The notes under the pieces were generated by a model. That model saw only the letters and a program-made list of their open reading frames with translations. It did no database searches and was not told the origin of the DNA. A program made the translations under genes and the position numbers. From Lacimicrobium sp. SS2-24 (GTDB taxonomy: Bacteria; Pseudomonadota; Gammaproteobacteria; Enterobacterales; Alteromonadaceae), in contig NZ_NIWW01000009.1 in NCBI RefSeq assembly GCF_002201535.1, positions 62,001 through 126,000 on the forward strand: a DNA stretch of 64,000 nucleotides. The letters are read 5' to 3'. This document shows, piece after piece, positions 26,024 to 36,963 of the stretch. Position 1 is the first letter of the stretch. Each line of letters opens with the position of its first letter.

Positions 26024-28786
26024 GTGATTCAAAGCAAACATGATCGATGCCGTTATCGCTACCTGACTCTGGAAAACGGGTTACGGGTTCTATTGGTAGA
26101 AGATACCGATTGCAAAAAGTCAGCCGTGTCGGCCACTATCGCTATGGGACACTTCCAGGACCCGCAACATTGCGAAGGCTTATCTCACTTACTCGAGCAT
26201 ATGCTCTTTATGGGGTGTGAACATTTCAATCAGCCGAATCATCTGGCGGATTTTCTCGCCTCACGGGGCGGTCACATTAATGCCTGGACAGGTACGGAAC
26301 ACTCCAGTTTCTATTTTGACACACTCACTGATGCGCTGGATCCGGCCCTGTCCCACTTTTCGGCCATGTTGTGCAACCCCTGTTTTAGTGTCAGTGGTAT
26401 TGAATCTGAAGTGCAAGCTATCGATGCGGAGTTTCGCCTCAAGCAGCAAGACGACTTAAGGTGTCTGTATCAGGTGCACAAAGAGACCTGCAATCCCGCC
26501 CATCCCTTTAGCCAGTTTTCTGTGGGTAATTTGGACATATTCTCGCAATTCAGTGGCGAGGAATTACAACGCATGTTGTTTAAGATCCATGCTGAGCATT
26601 ACCGTGCTGGTAATATGACCTTGTGTGTGGTTTCCAACTTGCCCCTGGCACAGAGCTGCGCACTGGTTGAGAAGCATTTTCGCACTATACCGCCCGGTAT
26701 CCGCCCTGCTGATGCGTTACCACCGTTGTATACCTCACAGCACCTGGGGCAAATCATTAAGGTGGTGCCAATCAAAACTGCCAGGCGCATGATCCTGACC
26801 TTCGCCTTACCGGACATCCAACCGCACTATCGCAGCAAGCCGCTTTACCTGCTCAGCCACCTTATCGGCGATGAAGGTCAGGGCAGTTTACTCAGCCACC
26901 TCAAGCATCAGGGTCTGGCCACTAACCTCAGTGCCGGAGGCGGCATTCAGGGCAGTAACTTCAAAGACTTCAATATCAACCTGCAATTGACGGAAACCGG
27001 CGCGCTCGAATGGCAAAGAGTGCTGGAGGCGGTGTTTGCTTACCTGAAGCTGATAAAGTCAGAGGGTATTAGCCGCTGGCGTTTTGATGAGCGCAGACAG
27101 TTCAATCAGCTGGCTTTTGATTACCATGACAAGGCCAAGCCCATTGATCTGGCCGCCAGTCTCTCTGTGCAAATGCACCACTATCCTGAAGAGCACGTGC
27201 TGGTGGGCGAGTACATCATGGATCGTTATGATCCCGAACTGGTGACATCGATGCTGGGCAAATTGATGCCAGAGAACATGCGCCTGAAACTAATTATGCC
27301 GGATTTAACCACCGACAAAACAGCCAAGTGGTATTCAACGCCCTATGCGGTATCTCCGTTACCCGCCCGCCTTATTCAGCGCTTAAATTCAGTGTCCGTG
27401 CCGTCCGATATGCAACTACCGTCCGCTAACCCTTATCTTTGCGTACGCACCGAACCTTATAAGAGTAATCCGGATTTTAACCAGCCTCAAAACCTGATAG
27501 CCGATCGCGGCTTTACATTCTGGTTTGGTCAGGATGCTGATTTTCGCCAACCCAAAGGGGAGCTGTATTTATCCTTAGACAGCGCGGCAATGGAACAAGG
27601 CTGTGAACTCAGAAGTTATAAACGGGTCTGGGCCAGCATGGTCCAGGATAAGCTTAATCAGGATTACTACCAGGCAGTCATTGCCGGACTAAACCTTCAC
27701 TTTTATGCCCATCAGGGGGGCTTTTCTTTACACACCAGTGGTTTTAGCGACAGACAGTTTGACCTCGCCGCACAGGTCTTACGCGATATCATGCACTTTG
27801 AGTTTAACGACAGTCAGTTTGAACAAGCACGGGCAAGGCAATGGCAAGCGATGCAAAATACCCTGCTCAACAAACCCATCAACCGGCTTTTTACCCGCCT
27901 GTCAGTATTATTACAGCCGCTATCCGACTCACCTCTGGATATGCTGCCGGTGTTGGATAGCGCAACGGCCCCCAACATGCGAAAGATGCAGGATCAGATT
28001 CTGCAGCAAATGCATCTGGATGCGTTTGCCTATGGTGACTGGCAGTTGAAGGAGGCGAAAAAATTCGCCAAACATATCAAGCAAGACGTACTCAGCCAGT
28101 TTCAAGCAGGAGACCTACTCCCACGCAAAGTCGTCAGCCTGCAGTCAGAACAGCGCCACCTGTTACCGGTGCGCTGCCAACCCGGCGAACATGCCGTGCT
28201 GCTGTACCTGCAATCTCCGGATAACTGTGCCGCCAATATTGCAAAAACCATCCTCACTGAACAGCTGCTCGCGGCGCCATTTTTCAATCAGCTGCGTACT
28301 GAAAAGCAATTGGGCTATGTTGTGGGCTCTGGCTATATGCCTTATAACCAGCACCCGGGCATGGGTTTTTATGTGCAATCCCCCAATCATTCACCTGAAA
28401 TTCTGAGCCGACATATTGACGAGTTCCTCTTCCAGGCGCCACGGTTGATTGAATCTATTCCGGAAACGGAATGGCTGGGACTCAAATCCAGTATCAGTAA
28501 ACAACTTACAGCCCGTGACACCAGCCTTTCCATGCGTTGTCAGCGTTTATGGCTGGCTATTGGCAATCAGGACATCAACTTCAATCAGCAGGAGCAACTG
28601 AGTGGTCAGATTGAACGTGTCAGCATTGCTGACATCATTCGTTATTTTGACCAACTGATGTCCGAAACAACCTCAGCCCAGGTGCTGCTTTATAGCCAGA
28701 GCACGGCAGATTTTACGCTCCCGGTGGAAGGACAAAAGATCAACAATGTGGGTGAATTCAAAGCAAATGCCACGTTAGTGCCATAA
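26024..28786 (+). CDS. M16-family zinc peptidase (insulinase/pitrilysin type)
   Basis: Large zinc protease that degrades peptides. The 920-residue protein has the inverted zinc motif HxxEH at residues 55-59 (HLLEHM) and the downstream Glu-rich helix ESEVQAIDAEF supplying the third ligand, followed by the usual four-domain length. Unlike E. coli protease III it has no signal peptide at the chosen start, so it is probably cytoplasmic. Start GTG at 26024 (GAAGG eleven bases upstream). Divergent from sixA across a 94-base gap. Confidence 0.88.
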   Translation: MIQSKHDRCRYRYLTLENGLRVLLVEDTDCKKSAVSATIAMGHFQDPQHCEGLSHLLEHMLFMGCEHFNQPNHLADFLASRGGHINAWTGTEHSSFYFDTLTDALDPALSHFSAMLCNPCFSVSGIESEVQAIDAEFRLKQQDDLRCLYQVHKETCNPAHPFSQFSVGNLDIFSQFSGEELQRMLFKIHAEHYRAGNMTLCVVSNLPLAQSCALVEKHFRTIPPGIRPADALPPLYTSQHLGQIIKVVPIKTARRMILTFALPDIQPHYRSKPLYLLSHLIGDEGQGSLLSHLKHQGLATNLSAGGGIQGSNFKDFNINLQLTETGALEWQRVLEAVFAYLKLIKSEGISRWRFDERRQFNQLAFDYHDKAKPIDLAASLSVQMHHYPEEHVLVGEYIMDRYDPELVTSMLGKLMPENMRLKLIMPDLTTDKTAKWYSTPYAVSPLPARLIQRLNSVSVPSDMQLPSANPYLCVRTEPYKSNPDFNQPQNLIADRGFTFWFGQDADFRQPKGELYLSLDSAAMEQGCELRSYKRVWASMVQDKLNQDYYQAVIAGLNLHFYAHQGGFSLHTSGFSDRQFDLAAQVLRDIMHFEFNDSQFEQARARQWQAMQNTLLNKPINRLFTRLSVLLQPLSDSPLDMLPVLDSATAPNMRKMQDQILQQMHLDAFAYGDWQLKEAKKFAKHIKQDVLSQFQAGDLLPRKVVSLQSEQRHLLPVRCQPGEHAVLLYLQSPDNCAANIAKTILTEQLLAAPFFNQLRTEKQLGYVVGSGYMPYNQHPGMGFYVQSPNHSPEILSRHIDEFLFQAPRLIESIPETEWLGLKSSISKQLTARDTSLSMRCQRLWLAIGNQDINFNQQEQLSGQIERVSIADIIRYFDQLMSETTSAQVLLYSQSTADFTLPVEGQKINNVGEFKANATLVP

Positions 28787-28948
28787 AGCCCTTGTTTTTC
28801 AACCTATATCCTTTGACTTGCTTGCCAACATCTTTTACTTTAGGAGGCCTTACGCCTTATGCGCAGCGGGATAGCGCGATATATGTGCCGGTTAAGGATG
28901 GCCGAAGGTAGAGCACTCAAGAATTAAAAATTATTATAATTGCAGCCT

Positions 28949-31900
28949 ATGCTGCCCCAAAGGTGTCCTTTGCGTCTTTCGTTGACCAATCTGGCTTGTC
29001 TGTTGTCAGTGCTGACTGTGCTCGGCTGTTACTCCGTGACGGCCTCGGCAACAACAGATATCTCGGCGCTGCAATTTGACAACTACTCCGTAGCGGAAGG
29101 CCTCACTCAATCTACGGTTATCGATATTATCGAGGATAAACATGGCTTTATCTGGGTAGCCACCGGGGATGGGCTGAACCGTTTCGATGGTTACGAATTT
29201 AAACAGTATCATCACAGTCCCGGTGCCACTAATAGCTTACCAGACAAAATTGTGCGCAAGCTATTTATTGATAGTAAAGAACGCTTATGGATAGGAACTG
29301 ATAAAGGGCTGGCCCGATACAATCAGGAAAAAGATGATTTTACCCGCTTTGACAATGGCAACACTGAGCTAACCAATAGCTTTATCGGTGCAATCAGTGA
29401 AACTGAAGACGGAGAGCTCTGGATTGCCAACAAACAACATCTATATCGCTATAACGAGCAAAAAAACGACTTTGCCGTTATTACACTGGCTGGAAAGTCC
29501 GTATTCCCTGAAACCACATTGATACATCATGAGTCAGACTTTATTTGGATAGGGAGTTACGGTCAGGGCATATGGGTTTATGACAAGTCCAGTAAAAACC
29601 TCCACTCTTTGAAAGAAAATAATCCCTGGGGCTTGAATATTCCCAGCGATATCCTTCATGACCTGAAAATTATAAATGGCCAATATTGGCTGGCGACAGA
29701 GCAAGGACTTTACGTTGTAAATCAAGAGCTTAATTTGTTAAGAATTTTAGATAAGCGATCTTCACCGTCTATCGCGGGAGATACTGTCCGCTCAATCTCT
29801 ACAGAAGCCAATGGAGACATCTGGATTGGTACGACTGAAGGCTTGAGTATACTAAATCCTACAACCATGGCGATACTGACAATCGATCAGCGTAATGATG
29901 CTCTGGTATCTCTAAAAAGCCGTTACATTTTTAAACTTTTTACCGACCGGAATGACACCCTGTGGCTAGGTAGTTATACCGGCGGATTGCATCGCTTTAA
30001 TGAAAATGCAGCATTCATTAAACACTACGAAGCAATACCTCACAGTAACATTTCTTTATCAGGCAACATGGTCTGGGCACTTTCTGAATCTGGAGATGGC
30101 AACATTTGGATTGCCACTCAGACCGACGGTCTCAACCATTTCAACCCACAAACAGGGGAGTTTTCCCACTACCTTCAGGACTTTCCACATTTCATTTGGG
30201 ATATGTCGATTGATGATAAAGATAGAGCTTGGCTCGCAACCATGGACGGTGTCTATGTCTATCAACTTGTTAAAAATGCCCCTCCTGTCCGGCTAACACA
30301 ACTTCTTCCTAGCGAAGCAGTAGAGAATATTAGCCTCGCAGCAGGGAAGGCCTGGCTATCTACAACAGGCAAGATGACCTCAATTGATTTGGAAGACTTC
30401 TCTATTTCCCATACCCAAGTCGCTAATAGTGAAGGGCAACTGGTAAAGCCGACCATAGTTGACAGCAATAAAAACCTTTGGATGATCTCCGGAGGTAAGC
30501 TGAGCTTGTACAATCTCGACACTCAACAGTTCAATCACTTACTAGTACAACCCGAGCAACAACCTTCACCATTTTTAAATGCAAATGCGGTCATTGAAGG
30601 GGAAAAGTTTTTTTGGATTTCCAGTCTAAAGAACGGGTTATATAAATTAGATAAAAGCACCTATCAACCTGTTCAACACTTCAGTAAAGCAAATGGTTTG
30701 TCTGATAATGTTGTCCTAACTATGTTGTTGGACAAACAATACTTGTGGGTTGCCACCTTTAAAGGCATCGATCAGATTTCGTTGAATGACGGCAAGATTG
30801 TAAGGCATATCACGCGCGCACAACTTGATTACAACGAACTCAATGAGTCAGCCGGGCTTATCACCAAGAACGGGAGTATTTTATTCGGTGGTACCAACGG
30901 CTTCCATGTGTTCCGACCGGAAAGGCTTACCAACAGTGCCGTAGCACTCTCAATGAAACCTACCATCACCGGACTACAGTTACTCAACCAACGGGTCACA
31001 TTGAACGACATAGGCAGTCCATTAGATAAGCCGATTCATTTAACTAATGCACTGACCCTTGAGAATGATGCGTCGCCGTTTTCCTTTGAGTTTGCTCAGA
31101 TCAACCCGATTAATCCGGGTTCCATTAATTATCGCTACCAGATGCAGGGACTGTCCGATCAGTGGCTTGAGGCAGACAGTCGAATTCGTCAGGCCAGCTT
31201 CACTAATCTGGGCTTTGGTGATTATGTGTTTAAGGTTCAGGCCCGGGAGCTGGATGGCCCCTGGTCTGATGCCGCTGCACTGAAAATTCATATTAAATCG
31301 CCTATATGGCTGCACCGCTACGCACTTATCATCTATGCCCTGTTAGGGTTTTTATTACTGAGCTACTGGTATAATCAATACCAGCACCGTAAAAACACGC
31401 AAAAGCGAGTTCAGGACAGCGAAGAGCGCCTCAAACTGACATTGTGGAGCAGCGGCGATGAACTCTGGGATTGGGACATTCCAAAAGAAGAAGTATTTCG
31501 TTCCAATATCTGGGGCATTATGGATTTCCCACAGGATAATCAGCGTGTGGTCACCGAATTGCCTTCCAATATACACCCTGCTGATATCTCCAGAGTGAGA
31601 GAGGTGCTTAGCGAGCATCTCCAGGGCCACAGTGAATTTTATGAAACCACCTACCGGGTAAAAAACTTCAGTGGCAAATGGATGTGGTTACTCGACAGGG
31701 GCAAAGTGGTGACCTGGTCTGCGGACAAAAAGCCCTTGCGCATGACCGGTACCCTGAAAAATATCAGCCACTTAAAAGAAGCCGAAGAGCAACTGCGGCT
31801 CTTTAAACGCTCCATCGAAACCATTTCAGATGGTGTCTTTATTACGGACACCAGCTTTAGAATCGTGTCAGTAAACCAGGCCTATTGTCACCATACTGGC

Positions 31901-33466
31901 GAGAGTAAACAAAAAGCCCTTGCCAGTTACCTCAATTTCGAACAGTACCCCCCTGCTTTCACTGAAGAGGTGCGCAAAGCCCTGAAACAGAAAGGTAACT
32001 GGAGCGGTGAAGTTGAATCCGTTCGCCACGGCAATGACCGTTATGAAATTGATTTAAACATCGATGCGATTCAAGACGAAACGGGCAGTGTCAGCCACTT
32101 TGTCGGCGTATTCTCAGACATCACATCCCGTAAGCAGACCGAGAAAGAACTGCTGCAACTGGCCAATACCGACACCCTCACCGGTCTGCCGAACCGTTCT
32201 TTCTTCCAGGCCAGTCACCAGAACCTGATCAGGCGCACCACTTCTCATGCTCTCATTTGCATGGACATGGATAATTTTAAGAAGATCAATGACTCCATGG
32301 GACATCAGACCGGTGACTTGCTGATTAAGCAAATCGCCGCAAGACTACAAAAAATTACCGGCACCAGCTCAACCTGTTATCGACTGGGTGGAGACGAGTT
32401 CAGTATTCTGATTGAAAATACCACCGATGTGCATCGCATTACTCACCTGGCACAAAGCATTCTGGATGATATGGCCCGCTCATTTGTGATTAATCGTCAG
32501 GAGTTTGTGTTAGGTGCGAGCCTTGGCATTGCCTTCTACCCGGAGGACGGCAAAACCCCTCAGGAACTGCTGAAAAATGCGGATACGGCCATGTATTTCG
32601 CCAAAAACGCCGGGGGCAATAAGTATCAGTTCTTCAGCGGTGAGATGAACCAGAACGCGGTACGCCAGCTACAGATAGAAAACCTGATTCGCCACGGCAT
32701 TAAAGAGGACTTATTCACCGTTTACTACCAGCCTAAAGTCGATATTGCCTCAGGTCAGTTAATCAGTATGGAAGCCCTGGTGCGCTTTGAGCATCCCGAA
32801 AAGGGCATTGTCAGCCCTGACCAGTTTATTCCACTGGCAGAGGAAACCGGGCAAATCATCGATATTGGTGAAATCGTGCTGCGCAAAGCCTGTGAACAGA
32901 CTCAGCAATGGGTGAAAAAGGGGCTGTTTACCGGCCGTGTGGCCATCAATATTTCAGCCCGACAATTTGAATTACCCGATCTTGATCGGCGTATTGAACA
33001 AATACTAAAAGAAACCGGTCTGTCGGCATTGCATCTTGAGTGTGAAATCACCGAGGGCACGCTGATGCAGCATCCCGAACAGTCCCTACAGCTGATGCAG
33101 CGTCTGCGAGAAATGGGGATTCACCTGGCACTGGACGACTTTGGTACTGGCTATTCCTCACTGGCGTACCTGAAACGCTTCCCGTTGAATACACTTAAGA
33201 TCGACAAAGCTTTTATCGATGATATTGCCACCAGCTCTGTTGACAGGCATATGACCAGTGCCATCATCACCATCGCCCACAACCTTGGCCTTAAGGTCGT
33301 TGCCGAGGGCGTGGAAGAAGAGCAGCAGCTGAGCATACTGCGCCGCTACGAATGTGAAATGCTGCAGGGCTACCTGTATAGCAAGCCTTTGAGTGCTGAA
33401 CGCTTTACCCGCCTTCTGGTTGAAAACCGTCATTTGTCTAAACTGATTAAACAACAAAACCTCTAA
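28949..33466 (+). CDS. Propeller-PAS-GGDEF-EAL bifunctional c-di-GMP sensor
   Basis: A 1505-residue membrane sensor of cyclic di-GMP turnover. Order: signal peptide (about 1-33), many two-component-regulator propeller repeats (about 38-660; for example HGFIWVATGDGLNRFDG), a Y_Y_Y domain (about 700-770, INYRYQMQGLSDQW), membrane helix (about 788-808), two PAS domains (about 825-945 and 950-1075), GGDEF (intact, residues 1147-1151, RLGGDEFS) and EAL (intact, EAL at 1275-1277; DDFGTGYSSLAYLKR). Both catalytic signatures are intact, so synthesis, hydrolysis or both are possible. ATG at 28949 gives the signal peptide; a TTG at 28940 is possible. No strong ribosome-binding site precedes it. Confidence 0.9.
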   Translation: MLPQRCPLRLSLTNLACLLSVLTVLGCYSVTASATTDISALQFDNYSVAEGLTQSTVIDIIEDKHGFIWVATGDGLNRFDGYEFKQYHHSPGATNSLPDKIVRKLFIDSKERLWIGTDKGLARYNQEKDDFTRFDNGNTELTNSFIGAISETEDGELWIANKQHLYRYNEQKNDFAVITLAGKSVFPETTLIHHESDFIWIGSYGQGIWVYDKSSKNLHSLKENNPWGLNIPSDILHDLKIINGQYWLATEQGLYVVNQELNLLRILDKRSSPSIAGDTVRSISTEANGDIWIGTTEGLSILNPTTMAILTIDQRNDALVSLKSRYIFKLFTDRNDTLWLGSYTGGLHRFNENAAFIKHYEAIPHSNISLSGNMVWALSESGDGNIWIATQTDGLNHFNPQTGEFSHYLQDFPHFIWDMSIDDKDRAWLATMDGVYVYQLVKNAPPVRLTQLLPSEAVENISLAAGKAWLSTTGKMTSIDLEDFSISHTQVANSEGQLVKPTIVDSNKNLWMISGGKLSLYNLDTQQFNHLLVQPEQQPSPFLNANAVIEGEKFFWISSLKNGLYKLDKSTYQPVQHFSKANGLSDNVVLTMLLDKQYLWVATFKGIDQISLNDGKIVRHITRAQLDYNELNESAGLITKNGSILFGGTNGFHVFRPERLTNSAVALSMKPTITGLQLLNQRVTLNDIGSPLDKPIHLTNALTLENDASPFSFEFAQINPINPGSINYRYQMQGLSDQWLEADSRIRQASFTNLGFGDYVFKVQARELDGPWSDAAALKIHIKSPIWLHRYALIIYALLGFLLLSYWYNQYQHRKNTQKRVQDSEERLKLTLWSSGDELWDWDIPKEEVFRSNIWGIMDFPQDNQRVVTELPSNIHPADISRVREVLSEHLQGHSEFYETTYRVKNFSGKWMWLLDRGKVVTWSADKKPLRMTGTLKNISHLKEAEEQLRLFKRSIETISDGVFITDTSFRIVSVNQAYCHHTGESKQKALASYLNFEQYPPAFTEEVRKALKQKGNWSGEVESVRHGNDRYEIDLNIDAIQDETGSVSHFVGVFSDITSRKQTEKELLQLANTDTLTGLPNRSFFQASHQNLIRRTTSHALICMDMDNFKKINDSMGHQTGDLLIKQIAARLQKITGTSSTCYRLGGDEFSILIENTTDVHRITHLAQSILDDMARSFVINRQEFVLGASLGIAFYPEDGKTPQELLKNADTAMYFAKNAGGNKYQFFSGEMNQNAVRQLQIENLIRHGIKEDLFTVYYQPKVDIASGQLISMEALVRFEHPEKGIVSPDQFIPLAEETGQIIDIGEIVLRKACEQTQQWVKKGLFTGRVAINISARQFELPDLDRRIEQILKETGLSALHLECEITEGTLMQHPEQSLQLMQRLREMGIHLALDDFGTGYSSLAYLKRFPLNTLKIDKAFIDDIATSSVDRHMTSAIITIAHNLGLKVVAEGVEEEQQLSILRRYECEMLQGYLYSKPLSAERFTRLLVENRHLSKLIKQQNL

Positions 33467-33644
33467 CCCCTTTACACCTTGCACCGCGCACCTGAATCCA
33501 GCCCTCTCGCTGTACCATAAATTGCCGCCATCCTTAATGCTGGCGGCAATGGGTGGCAGGGCTTTGCCTGTTGTCGGCTCAACAGCATCAGCCATACTCT
33601 CCTGTCTCCCCGGTCGGATCGCCACAATCAAGGTAACGACAACA
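33467..33644. other. Gene-free spacer between the sensor gene and the small-peptide unit
   Basis: No credible coding frame. The 324-base gap from 33467 to 33790 holds this spacer, then an inverted repeat and a sigma-54-type promoter listed separately. Confidence 0.5.
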
Positions 33645-33665
33645 TTTTGACGTTTCTCGTCAAAA
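33645..33665. promoter_or_regulatory. Inverted repeat; possible enhancer-binding site
   Basis: TTTTGACG-TTTCT-CGTCAAAA, eight perfect pairs, about 85 bases upstream of the predicted sigma-54 transcription start. Enhancer-binding activators of sigma-54 promoters use dyad sites at such distances. No GC-rich stem or T run that would make it a terminator. Confidence 0.4.
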
Positions 33666-33713
33666 GACATTAAAAGCAATACCTTTGTATATTTATCAAT
33701 AACTTACACAACA

Positions 33714-33729
33714 TGGCACGGGATTCGCT
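33714..33729 (+). promoter_or_regulatory. Predicted sigma-54 promoter (-24/-12)
   Basis: TGGCACGGGATTCGCT against the consensus TGGCACG-N4-TTGCW: the -24 GG and -12 GC are separated by ten bases exactly, and only one position of the core differs. Transcription would start near 33741, about 50 bases before the small-peptide ATG. The gene downstream has a strong ribosome-binding site and its own terminator. Confidence 0.6.
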
Positions 33730-33790
33730 ATTAATGCTTCGGCAGCGCTAGTTCGCTGTTAATAATAATTAACCCGATAGGAGAGAAAAC

Positions 33791-33931
33791 ATGTTGAAAG
33801 CTTATGCAATGGCCCTTGTTATGACCACAGCAGCTCCGGTAGCAGATAAGGCAGCCGACGGCGCAAAAACTCAGGCGCAGTCTCCAGCCCCTGCAATGCA
33901 AATCTGGAAGCCAGGTTCAGTTCGCCTGTAA
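33791..33931 (+). CDS. Short exported or membrane-associated peptide, 46 residues, unknown
   Basis: Reading frame of 46 codons with ATG at 33791, AGGAGAG seven bases upstream, and stop at 33931. The first 15 residues (MLKAYAMALVMTTAA) are hydrophobic after one Lys and could be a signal or membrane segment; the rest is Ala-, Pro- and Gln-rich and ends MQIWKPGSVRL. It sits between a sigma-54-type promoter and an intrinsic terminator, so it forms a complete unit. I recognise no family. It is too short for usual gene callers. Confidence 0.65.
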   Translation: MLKAYAMALVMTTAAPVADKAADGAKTQAQSPAPAMQIWKPGSVRL

Positions 33932-33975
33932 GCAAAGCTTGTTGTTCAGCATTGGCTGAAGGACGACAGTATTCG

Positions 33976-34001
33976 AAAAAGAGGGCTTGCCCTCTTTTTT
34001 T
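33976..34001 (+). terminator. Intrinsic terminator of the small-peptide transcript
   Basis: AAAAAGAGGG-CTTG-CCCTC followed by seven T residues. It ends the short transcript about 260 bases after the predicted sigma-54 start. Confidence 0.85.
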
Positions 34002-34528: not shown

Positions 34529-34729
34529 CTAGGCACGCAGATAGACGCTACCGAAACTGCGCACTCGACGCAGCGCAAGGCGTCTTTTGACGTTGAATAA
34601 GGGTAATATCAGCGGTCCGAAAAATAGCCCAGCCAACCCCCAGCGCCTGGCGCTCAAGCCGCTACGAAAACTCTCCACATAACAAAACAATGCAGAAGCA
34701 AAGCAAGCCAGAAGTCCAACAATCATCAT
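34529..34729 (-). CDS. Small two-helix membrane protein, unknown
   Basis: Sixty-six residues with two hydrophobic segments (about 1-20, MMIVGLLACFASALFC; about 29-46, WGLAGLFFGPLILPLFNV) and a basic C terminus (KRRLALRRVR). AGAGGGCGG stands before the double ATG at 34729/34726, which decides the start: the frame is open to 34780, but that part is a transcription terminator. It is the first gene after fadJ on the same strand. Confidence 0.6.
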   Translation of the reverse strand: MMIVGLLACFASALFCYVESFRSGLSARRWGLAGLFFGPLILPLFNVKRRLALRRVRSFGSVYLRA

Positions 34730-34743
34730 CCGCCCTCTTACAA

Positions 34744-34776
34744 CAAAAAAAGCTGCCTGTATGACTACAGACAGCT
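34744..34776 (-). terminator. Intrinsic terminator after fadI-fadJ
   Basis: On the minus strand AGCTGTCTGTA-GTCA-TACAGGCAGCT (eleven pairs including one G-U) followed by TTTTTTTG. It lies downstream of fadJ and immediately upstream of the small membrane-protein gene, so the latter is either read through or has its own promoter. Confidence 0.8.
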
Positions 34777-34839
34777 TCATTATACCACTTTGGACTTACA
34801 ATGTAGTTTTTTATTCGTTAATATTATGTTAAGCGGGCG

Positions 34840-36963
34840 TTACGAATAAAAAGGCTTGCTCTCCCCTGCCATAGTCTTAAGCAACGCCGCCGGCGCAAAC
34901 TTGTCACCATAAAGGCCCTGATAATGTTCTAAGCGGGCCACCACATGGTCAATACCGAGGCTGTCCATATACCTGAAAGGTCCTCCGAGAAACGGCGGAA
35001 AGCCGATACCGAAAATAGCACCTATATCACCGTCTCTGGGATTGCGGATCACACCCTCATCAAGACACATGGCCGCTTCGTTAAGCATCAGTAAGATACA
35101 ACGTTCTGCAATCTGTTCATGGCTAAATTGTTGCGAAGGCGATAAACCCAGCAAGCTATAAACGGACTCATCCACTTCTTTACCGGGTTTTTTACCCGAG
35201 TACAGGTAAAGTCCCTTCTTATTCTTTTTACCCTTGCGATCATCGGCCAGTAGTTTGTCAAAGGCATCGGGGGCTTTAAACCGATCCCCTAACTCCTCCA
35301 CCAATATGGGAGAGATTTTGGCACCAATATCAATACCCACTTCATCTAACAACTTCATCGGGCCAACCGGAAAACCAAAGTTCAACAGCGCTTTGTCTAT
35401 TTGCTCTATGGGCTCACCACTGAGCAGCACGTTCGCCGCCTCGTTCATATAGGGAGCCAGAATACGATTGACATAAAAACCCGCACCATCTTTAACGACA
35501 ATGGGTGTTTTCCCCTGCTTGCGGGCAAATTCCACTGTTGTCGAAATAGTTTGATCATCAGTCTGTGGATGAGGGATCACCTCAGCCAGCGGCATTTTGT
35601 CGACAGGCGAAAAGTAATGCAGCCCTATGACCTGCTGAGGGCGCTTCGCTTCGGCCGCTATTTTTGTAATCGGGATAGATGATGTATTGGTGGCAAAAAT
35701 GGTCTTGTCATGGCAATGGGCTTCAACATCCTCCACCATTTGTTGCTTCAGTTTAAGGTCTTCAAATACCGCTTCGATCACCAAGTCCACGTCTTTAAAG
35801 CCGGAGTAGTCGGTACTGCCAGTCAGTAAAGACAGCTGCTTTTGCATTTCAGATTTACGCATAAAGCGACGCTTGACCTTTTTAATCAGAATGTCATAGC
35901 TGTATTTGATGGCATTAGCGATACCCTCTGAGCGGATATCCTTAATACGAACTGGCAAACCGGCTTTGGTGGCCGTCACGTAAGCGATACCTCCTCCCAT
36001 TAGCCCACCGCCCAACACCGCTGTTTTATGCAGTTTCGCCGGTTCGACACCTTCAACACCGGTTTCTTTCTTCATCTGCGTGGTGGCAAAGAAAATATTC
36101 CGTAACTCATTCGATTCCGGCGTCATCACCAGTTGACCAAAGTGACGTGCTTCGGTCTCATAACCTCTGCCAGAGCTGACACCGGCCTCGATACAATCGA
36201 TAATCCGCTCCGGAGCCGGATAGTTACCTCGTGTCTTGGCAAGGGTCTGTTTACGCGCTTGCTTAAACAGGAACCCACGTCCAAATGGCGTCTGCTCCAG
36301 AACTTTATTCACAAGACTCAGGCTGGGACCTTCACGCTGCGGTTTGCGCTTTTTGGCATATTGAACCGCCACATCCATCAAAATGGATTGCGGCACACAA
36401 TCGTCCACCAGCCCATCACGCTTAGCCTGTTTCGGACGCAGCTGCTTACCCGTCAACATCATGGTCATGGCTTTTTGAATGCCAATTAATTTCGGCAATC
36501 GTTGCGTACCACCGGATCCGGGAAGCAAACCCAACTGAACTTCAGGCAGGCCCATGGCGGTTTTACTGTCGTCGCTGCAAATACGATAGTGACAGCACAG
36601 GGCCAGTTCCAGCCCTCCACCGAGCGCTGGCCCGTGGATTGCCGCCACCACAGGTATTTTCATATTTTCGATTCGCTGGAACATTTGCTGACCCGCACGG
36701 GATAGTTGTTCAGCGTCGTCGGCAGACTGACAGGCAGCCAACATACTGATATCGGCACCGGCAACGAAAGAATTCGCTTTGCCGCTGGCGATCACCAGCC
36801 CTTTAACTCCCGGGTCTTTATCGATTTCATCCAGTTGTTCGGCAATTTGCTCTGCAAACTCGGCTTTTAGGGTGTTCATGCTTTCGCCAGGAACATCCAT
36901 GGTCAGGATGGCAATACCATCGTCACGCTGGGATAACGTAAATGCGCTCTTAGTTGTTGACAT
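34840..36963 (-). CDS. fadJ: Fatty-acid oxidation complex subunit alpha FadJ
   Basis: Bifunctional enoyl-CoA hydratase and 3-hydroxyacyl-CoA dehydrogenase of beta-oxidation. The 707-residue protein has an N-terminal crotonase domain (about 10-190; [31 protein letters not shown]), then the dehydrogenase domain with the Rossmann motif [14 protein letters not shown] (about 320) and the [13 protein letters not shown] signature, and C-terminal helical domains. Length and the pairing with a FadI-type thiolase mark FadJ, not FadB. AGGAGG precedes the ATG; fadI ends 10 bases upstream. Confidence 0.94.

Follow-up and report, generated by a model that had tools for sequence, protein, structure and literature searches.

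A sigma-54-type peptide precursor gene and its neighbouring double-propeller GGDEF-EAL sensor in Lacimicrobium and its relatives: a candidate peptide signal system

In the window, which is the whole stretch of 64,000 nucleotides from Lacimicrobium sp. SS2-24 that was analysed, a small gene of 46 codons lies downstream of the gene for a large c-di-GMP sensor, and comparison with relatives revealed that it is the one-copy form of a multi-copy peptide precursor family present in many marine bacteria. The initial annotation had described a sigma-54 unit whose product might be a secreted signal or envelope peptide tied to the c-di-GMP sensor. This view is supported by the conservation of the promoter and the frame, and by computed selection, co-occurrence with the sensor and correlated divergence of peptide and sensor; secretion and signalling we infer. 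The control by nutrients or surface response that was also suggested found no support, nor was it contradicted. We lean towards the whole scheme, in which a secreted peptide precursor would be read by the neighbouring periplasmic sensor and c-di-GMP would be set by it.

The precursor unit

The unit contains the following elements.

33645-33665, no strand: inverted repeat with perfect 8-bp arms (fold z -3.1, better than shuffled sequence)
33694-33706, plus strand: perfect match TATCAATAACTTA to the IHF consensus WATCAANNNNTTR, just 5' of the -24 box
33713-33728, plus strand: sigma-54 promoter ATGGCACGGGATTCGC, with GG at -24 and GC at -12
33741-33760, plus strand: predicted stem-loop at the 5' end of the mRNA (fold -9.8 kcal/mol)
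33780-33785, plus strand: ribosome-binding site GGAGAG, from the sequence
33791-33931, plus strand: peptide precursor gene, 46 aa, MLKAYAMALVMTTAAPVADKAADGAKTQAQSPAPAMQIWKPGSVRL
33791-33844, plus strand: conserved leader, a signal-peptide-like segment of codons 1-18, MLKAYAMALVMTTAAPVA
33902-33928, plus strand: proposed core peptide IWKPGSVRL, in a single copy that runs up to the stop codon
33975-34000, plus strand: intrinsic terminator, common to the precursor gene and a convergent small gene

A ribosome-binding site, a 46-codon frame and a strong terminator had been noticed before, and all of them were confirmed here. Relatives carry GAGG or GGAG at the place equivalent to the GGAGAG of the window. 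The terminator (-13.7 kcal/mol, z -3.6) folds better than shuffled sequence and recurs in all relatives whose 3' flank was inspected; a stem AGAGAG...CTCTCT is present in relatives. The frame is conserved at the protein level, and a profile search detected it in 82 of 399 Alteromonadaceae genomes (E < 1e-6). The description was correct in almost all details, with each element where it had been placed. It overlooked the mRNA stem at the 5' end, the perfect match to the IHF consensus and the fixed order of the surrounding genes.

The peptide had been taken to belong to no recognised family, and indeed it belongs to no family in Pfam, NCBIfam or Rfam. Genes of this kind presumably lie outside the searched family libraries because they are short, repetitive and divergent. 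Matches of the repeat-containing precursors to DUF4097 and other families were scattered, dependent on the member and of low complexity, and were not counted as homology. A full-text literature search returned no description, within a coverage that left out subscription journals and preprints and could miss descriptions by locus tag.

Gene order and the syntenic slot

The precursor gene occupies a slot whose other members in the window are as follows.

26024-28786, plus strand: M16-family peptidase gene, left neighbour of the sensor gene (synteny in L043-L078)
28940-33466, plus strand: sensor gene, 1508 aa, with two beta-propellers and Y_Y_Y (periplasmic), one transmembrane segment and PAS-PAS-GGDEF-EAL, assigned with Pfam
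34529-34729, minus strand: convergent gene for a small membrane protein, about 66 aa from the conserved start, a positional neighbour
34840-36963, minus strand: fadJ, right-hand anchor of the slot, with homologues in 27 of 27 genomes tested

The order M16 peptidase, propeller/GGDEF/EAL sensor, peptide, (convergent small membrane protein), fadJ and fadI is found at nearly all of 36 named loci from Lacimicrobium, Bowmanella, Aliiglaciecola, Alteromonas, Paraglaciecola, Aestuariibacter and Salinimonas, and the departures are mostly contig ends. In L050, the sensor match and the peptide are about 2.9 kb apart; the promoter and the peptide are kept there though contiguity is broken. The convergent small gene is kept in nearly all syntenic loci and also stands in some slots that have no precursor (L101, L103). 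Its open frame spans 34529-34780, and the protein is probably about 66 aa long with a start near 34729, because orthologues begin at the equivalent of MMIVGLL; it has no match in Pfam or NCBIfam.

The M16 peptidase was considered as a processing enzyme on the ground of adjacency. It also adjoins sensors that have no propeller, and it stays beside the sensor where the precursor is absent, so it counts as a positional neighbour, and its adjacency does not support a part in processing the peptide. The precursor is linked to no gene for a dedicated protease, exporter or activator, and no known RiPP modification enzyme is present among the slot neighbours (M16 peptidase, sensor, small membrane protein, fadJ and fadI). 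When four genomes were searched for further precursor copies elsewhere, none was found; each has one copy, always in the same slot. In G269 (C1:285856-286228) the peptide gene stands twice side by side, which is a duplication of the gene and not an internal duplication of the core. Behind the sensor gene of the window lies a GC-rich hairpin with perfect 8-bp arms (33522-33549, TTGCCGCC...GGCGGCAA) and no T run, at which the sensor mRNA possibly ends, and GC-rich repeats of a similar kind follow the sensor in L020 and L022.

Distribution and the repeat-type family

Searched with the single sequence at E up to 1, 41 genomes yielded 15 with a match, and inspection confirmed ten of these. The peptide profile alone suggested a family restricted to the Alteromonas clade. 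This restriction turned out to be a limit of sensitivity and was overturned when the syntenic slot was read in genera without a profile match. There, downstream of a sigma-54 promoter, the frame opens with a short signal-like segment and continues in tandem repeats, such as GRKGIRI, GKRIKI, GRKASTIRI and AKGRGVKV, and the same slot holds a sigma-54 promoter and a tandem-repeat precursor in other genera and in three other families. Among 76 assessable slots, defined as those behind full-length sensors in genera chosen by sensor homology, 70 contain a sigma-54-type precursor. Automatic detection accounted for 68 of these; the other two (L193, L194) were recognised by eye and have the GG-N10-GC spacing with a weaker -24 box. 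The six full sensors without a precursor in the slot belong to four g4 genomes, one g56 genome and one f7 genome (the last two being L199 and L219).

The copy number of the core is one in Lacimicrobium, Alteromonas, g15 and g46, two in the Paraglaciecola type and at most about 28, in a product of 413 aa from L214. Single-core products measure 46-55 aa. In the arrays, the repeat unit has 9-22 residues with a core of about 7-9 that ends in [VIKL]-[RK]-[ILVFMY]; the peptide repeated in tandem has 7-13 residues and an end like -VRI, -IRI or -VKV. Examples are (GTRKDQVRI)x7 in L173, (ASNKIRIQPT)x10 in L174 and (GKSHGKVRI)x4 in L182, and outside Alteromonadaceae the cores include AGIPAVKVLETQT repeats in f6 (L220), VWRKIDI in f16 (L206) and HIPIRFEPVA in f20 (L211). 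Both the place of IWKPGSVRL and its [VI]-[RK]-[hydrophobic] end agree with the repeated cores of these relatives. Three arrays (L161, L162, L230) are cut off by a contig end, an expected outcome when draft assemblies contain repeats.

The precursor ends exactly at the core in 37 of 47 complete Alteromonadaceae precursors, as expected if the carboxyl end of the core matters; the f6 arrays do not end at the core end. Spacers between the units are present in some arrays and missing in others, and are acidic in several. The cores are basic, with a median net charge of +3 over the last 10 residues, and those of close species differ by two or three residues, as in GTKRNQVRI, GTKRSQVRI and GTRKGQVRI.

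Selection on the peptide and its export

When we compared neighbouring units of the same array, 805 synonymous and 221 replacement codon differences were counted, while about 25% synonymous differences are expected neutrally. The approximate omega of the repeat units was 0.09, and 0.20 without the anchor columns that were used for finding the units. In units with a spacer, the last eight residues showed 367 synonymous and 39 replacement differences against 143 and 130 in the spacer, a contrast somewhat biased by the choice of anchor. Tandem core copies are hence under protein-level selection in the family, of which the member in the window has one copy. It is probable that the core is the functional unit and that the arrays are multi-copy precursors.

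The leader is constrained as well. Among 32 diverse members, M1, L2, K3, A4, A6 and A8 are invariant, and Y5, T13 and P16 are kept in at least 90%. Pairwise comparison within the single-copy group revealed hundreds of synonymous changes and zero amino-acid changes at leader codons 2, 4, 6 and 8, indicating that the leader is read as protein. By inspection, the f6 and f16 precursors begin with textbook Sec signal peptides with small residues at the end, for example MKTLLLASALGLTLLATSATA in L206. The start of the Alteromonadaceae precursors is shorter; inspection of the segment in the window showed K3, a hydrophobic stretch at 4-12, and A15 or A18, which is compatible with a short Sec signal. 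Export is likely in view of the textbook signal peptides of f6 and f16 and the similar character of the Alteromonadaceae start. We regard it as very likely that the gene encodes a sigma-54-driven exported precursor.

Promoter and upstream DNA

The near-consensus -24/-12 promoter reported earlier is present as TGGCACGGGATTCGC at 33714-33728, in the context TGGCAC-N5-TTGC with GG and GC 10 bp apart. By itself this pattern is not significant, since the window contains 10 matches against 7.9 expected. Its significance comes from conservation across relatives and not from the match alone: GG-N10-GC occurs with exact spacing, 74-112 nt upstream of the ATG, in 55 of 55 non-redundant peptide loci. The check proposed for relatives, a search for the frame together with the -24/-12 element, was run with the outcome that both are conserved. 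When the -24 boxes of 123 sigma-54 sites were tallied, 83 read TGGCAC and 37 read TGGCAT.

The inverted repeat upstream was also found as annotated, with perfect arms. A role of the whole palindrome as an activator site is not supported, as the palindrome is not conserved, and the reading as a conserved operator was rejected since only one arm is conserved. This left arm, TTTTGAC (33645-33651), is the sole conserved part and is kept in part of the family; TTTTGAC(G) is fixed about 65 bp upstream of the -24 box in the Lacimicrobium/Bowmanella group and about 55 bp upstream in the Alteromonas group, so that the arm is a possible activator half-site. Close relatives have near-matches to the IHF consensus, of which the window holds 6 perfect matches against 2.7 expected. 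The half-site and the IHF match might mark the place where an activator acts. No upstream activator or IHF-type site common to all members was found, and in some relatives a mere 8-50 bp separate the upstream gene from the promoter.

A PrsR-type response regulator of PEP-CTERM systems is encoded in this genome (G000 C16:168022-169347; 708 bits, above the curated cut-off), and it is a possible activator here. A universal role of PrsR is unsupported, because PrsR does not follow the precursor across families: it is missing from the tested f6 and f16 genomes that carry the precursor and present in some genomes that do not.

The 5' stem has a mean z of -2.2 over 49 relatives of the Alteromonas/Lacimicrobium group and of -0.8 in repeat-type members. 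It is thus lineage-specific, and was ruled out as a general RNA element. In the Alteromonas group (e.g. L048, L051), the tract TTTTGTTTGTTTTGTT is conserved between the stem and the ribosome-binding site.

The sensor and its association with the precursor

The AlphaFold model of the sensor has a mean pLDDT of 90. Pfam, the model and the structure match together identify two seven-bladed propellers followed by Y_Y_Y, which is an HTCS-like periplasmic sensor domain. The closest solved fold is the periplasmic domain of BT4663 (4a2l), with a TM-score of 0.81 and a match over the full length, and the PDB describes this domain as a heparin and heparan sulphate sensor. One part of the sensor stands out by its divergence.

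30140-30619, plus strand: sensor codons about 401-560, the most variable stretch among close species, by column entropy (g9, g2) and windowed distances

Judged by this variability, residues about 401-560 are a candidate specificity region.

The precursor was found in none of 15 genomes in which the orthologous slot gene lacks the propeller, and no repeat frame was found there either; the open frames of these 15 genes do not exceed about 900 aa, and domain content was checked in five of them. The comparison of 70/76 with 0/15 gives a Fisher value of 1e-12, a figure that overstates the evidence since the genomes are related. Within g46, two genomes (G252, G264) have the full sensor and the precursor, and three (G047, G122, G090) have a divergent sensor and no precursor. 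The synteny of the M16 gene and the sensor gene is retained in the propeller-less genomes examined, indicating that the precursor goes with the propeller rather than with its genomic surroundings. At E 1e-240, the sampled genomes contained no comparable sensor outside the family. We consider it quite likely that the neighbouring sensor is the functional partner of the precursor. In four g4 genomes (L147, L203, L204, L224), where the precursor is absent, the C-terminus of the sensor has a conserved core-like tail, KPSPIRPAVRI(AKR), which could be a core, fused or vestigial, or a chance resemblance.

Coevolution of the core and the sensor

In 40 repeat-type genomes, the partial correlation between core and sensor distances given the catalytic domain was 0.55 (permutation p 0.0005), and the reverse control gave -0.11. 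The sign of the correlation was unchanged within three genera. Among 30 single-copy-type loci, a set independent of the first, the partial correlation given the catalytic domain, FadJ and M16 was again 0.55 (p 0.001), and M16, which evolves fast too, showed no correlation with the core (-0.08). Within g9, the sensor part is 4-5 times as divergent as the catalytic half (0.36 vs 0.08). Simple linkage or a single recombination tract is no easy explanation, since the sensor part and the peptide gene are separated by the catalytic half. A residual clock effect is possible, with the large, fast-evolving sensor domain recording divergence time better than the controls. By linkage, co-occurrence and partial Mantel tests, the sensor is a linked and coevolving candidate receptor, in the sense of correlation and not of binding.

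Proposed mechanism and alternative explanations

We propose that, once an activator is on, sigma-54 RNA polymerase would make a short mRNA, and that the signal segment at the N-terminus would direct export of the precursor. The basic core at the C-terminus, approximately IWKPGSVRL here, would be freed, with one copy per precursor in this genus and 2 to about 28 elsewhere. The free peptide, in the periplasm or the medium, would bind the double-propeller/Y_Y_Y domain of the neighbouring sensor, whose PAS-GGDEF-EAL part would then alter c-di-GMP, and the outcome would be a species-specific peptide signal or a self-sensing loop. Cleavage into free peptides and binding to the sensor are putative steps, and that the core is the direct ligand of this sensor seems to us moderately probable. 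The chances appear evenly balanced for the wider idea of an order-wide peptide communication of Gram-negative bacteria, in which a sigma-54-driven tandem-repeat pheromone precursor and a coevolving double-propeller receptor that directly controls c-di-GMP would resemble yeast mating pheromones in design.

The repeats could instead form an exported adhesive or amyloid-like polymer of the envelope or biofilm, co-regulated with c-di-GMP, with a sensor that monitors it or merely adjoins. Such a structural protein would account for a beta-like [IV]-[RK]-[hydrophobic] motif in units that recur almost unchanged up to about 28 times in a product of 413 aa, and for the linkage to a c-di-GMP enzyme. However, many members possess a single core of 7-10 residues in 46-55 aa, which is too short for a repeat scaffold, the species-specific core covaries with the sensor, and spacers occur in some arrays and are absent from others; we therefore find a matrix role unlikely. 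Among solved structures, those closest to the sensor domain come from Bacteroides sensors, with a heparin/heparan sulphate sensor as the best match, so an oligosaccharide ligand is possible. The sensor would then bind an environmental glycan, and the peptide would be an accessory, either a periplasmic modulator of the sensor or, as a decoy substrate, a reporter of protease activity; co-occurrence and coevolution suit any physical partner. Tandem defined cores, and ends exactly at the core in most Alteromonadaceae, nevertheless suit the release of free peptides better, and an accessory peptide of this kind is improbable.

The basic cores (median net charge +3) and the acidic spacers in several arrays are also what a family of cationic antimicrobial or bacteriocin-like peptides could show, with tandem copies to raise the yield. 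Such a role is very unlikely, as neither an immunity nor an export gene adjoins, the four genomes tested have one copy each in always the same slot, presence depends on the propeller sensor and no toxin-like family was matched. Finally, the transcript is short and terminated, and its 5' stem is stable in the Alteromonas/Lacimicrobium group (mean z -2.2), which might point to a regulatory RNA made of stem and terminator with an incidental or secondary frame. The synonymous bias is strong in the repeats, the invariant leader codons change synonymously, the stem is not general among repeat-type members and the Rfam search gave no family above threshold, all of which makes a regulatory RNA highly improbable.

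Comparison with known systems

P-factor of Schizosaccharomyces pombe is encoded by map2 in four to eight tandem repeats and has a diverse receptor, Mam2, and both its copy number and its peptide sequence differ among strains (PMC6342294). Like the precursors described here, whose signal peptide is a putative one, those of yeast pheromones (P-factor and the alpha-factor of Saccharomyces cerevisiae) combine a signal peptide with tandem copies of a short peptide. The yeast systems are, however, eukaryotic, with a GPCR receptor, known processing enzymes and no sequence relation, while the present family is bacterial, under sigma-54 control and with a propeller-GGDEF-EAL receptor candidate. In Gram-positive pheromone systems such as Agr, ComX/ComC and Rgg-SHP, an exported, species-specific short peptide is encoded beside its sensor gene, and the sensor domain diverges fast. 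Their precursors have one copy and their receptors are histidine kinases or cytoplasmic regulators, whereas the present family has many copies and a proposed c-di-GMP output. The Bacteroides hybrid two-component sensors BT4663, BT3049 and BT4673 share the periplasmic double propeller and Y_Y_Y. The present sensor differs from them by its GGDEF-EAL output in place of a histidine kinase and response regulator, and the ligand of BT4663 is a glycan; we know of no partner peptide gene of these hybrid sensors.

Multicore RiPP precursors (graspetides, microviridins and others) also have a leader and repeated cores. In the present family, by contrast, no maturation enzyme lies beside the gene, the N-terminus is a probable signal peptide, and the cores, by inspection, carry no typical residues for modification, such as Cys-rich or Ser/Thr-Asp/Glu ladders. 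PEP-CTERM genes under PrsK/PrsR are single genes for exported proteins; a sigma-54 site precedes their start by about 70 nt, and further upstream they have an activator motif, reported to end in TTTACA (PMC1569441). The precursor unit resembles them in its probable exported product, sigma-54 site and possible upstream motif, and differs in the half-site, which is TTTTGAC instead of TTTACA. No PEP motif with transmembrane segment and basic tail was found at the precursor C-termini, and the precursors are not PEP-CTERM proteins by this measure.

To our knowledge, no bacterial multi-copy precursor with a c-di-GMP receptor has been described, and we rate the precursor-sensor system as new in anatomy, with a hypothetical function. 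Sensing of peptide pheromones at the cell surface is characteristic of Gram-positive bacteria, the signals known in Gram-negative quorum sensing are mainly small molecules, and c-di-GMP is a switch for biofilm and motility. If confirmed, the system would mean that a peptide signal with a receptor class of its own is widespread among Gram-negative bacteria and feeds directly into c-di-GMP, and it would provide a peptide ligand for a family of propeller sensors, the best-known of whose solved relatives senses a glycan. The cores are open to synthesis and direct testing, and their differences among closely related species form a natural laboratory of ligand-receptor coevolution. In one sub-clade (L063, L065, L067, L073, L077 and L078), the cores have two cysteines, as in KPGKCFVCGVDK and KPSSCRCGIIK, and could each give a disulphide-closed peptide.
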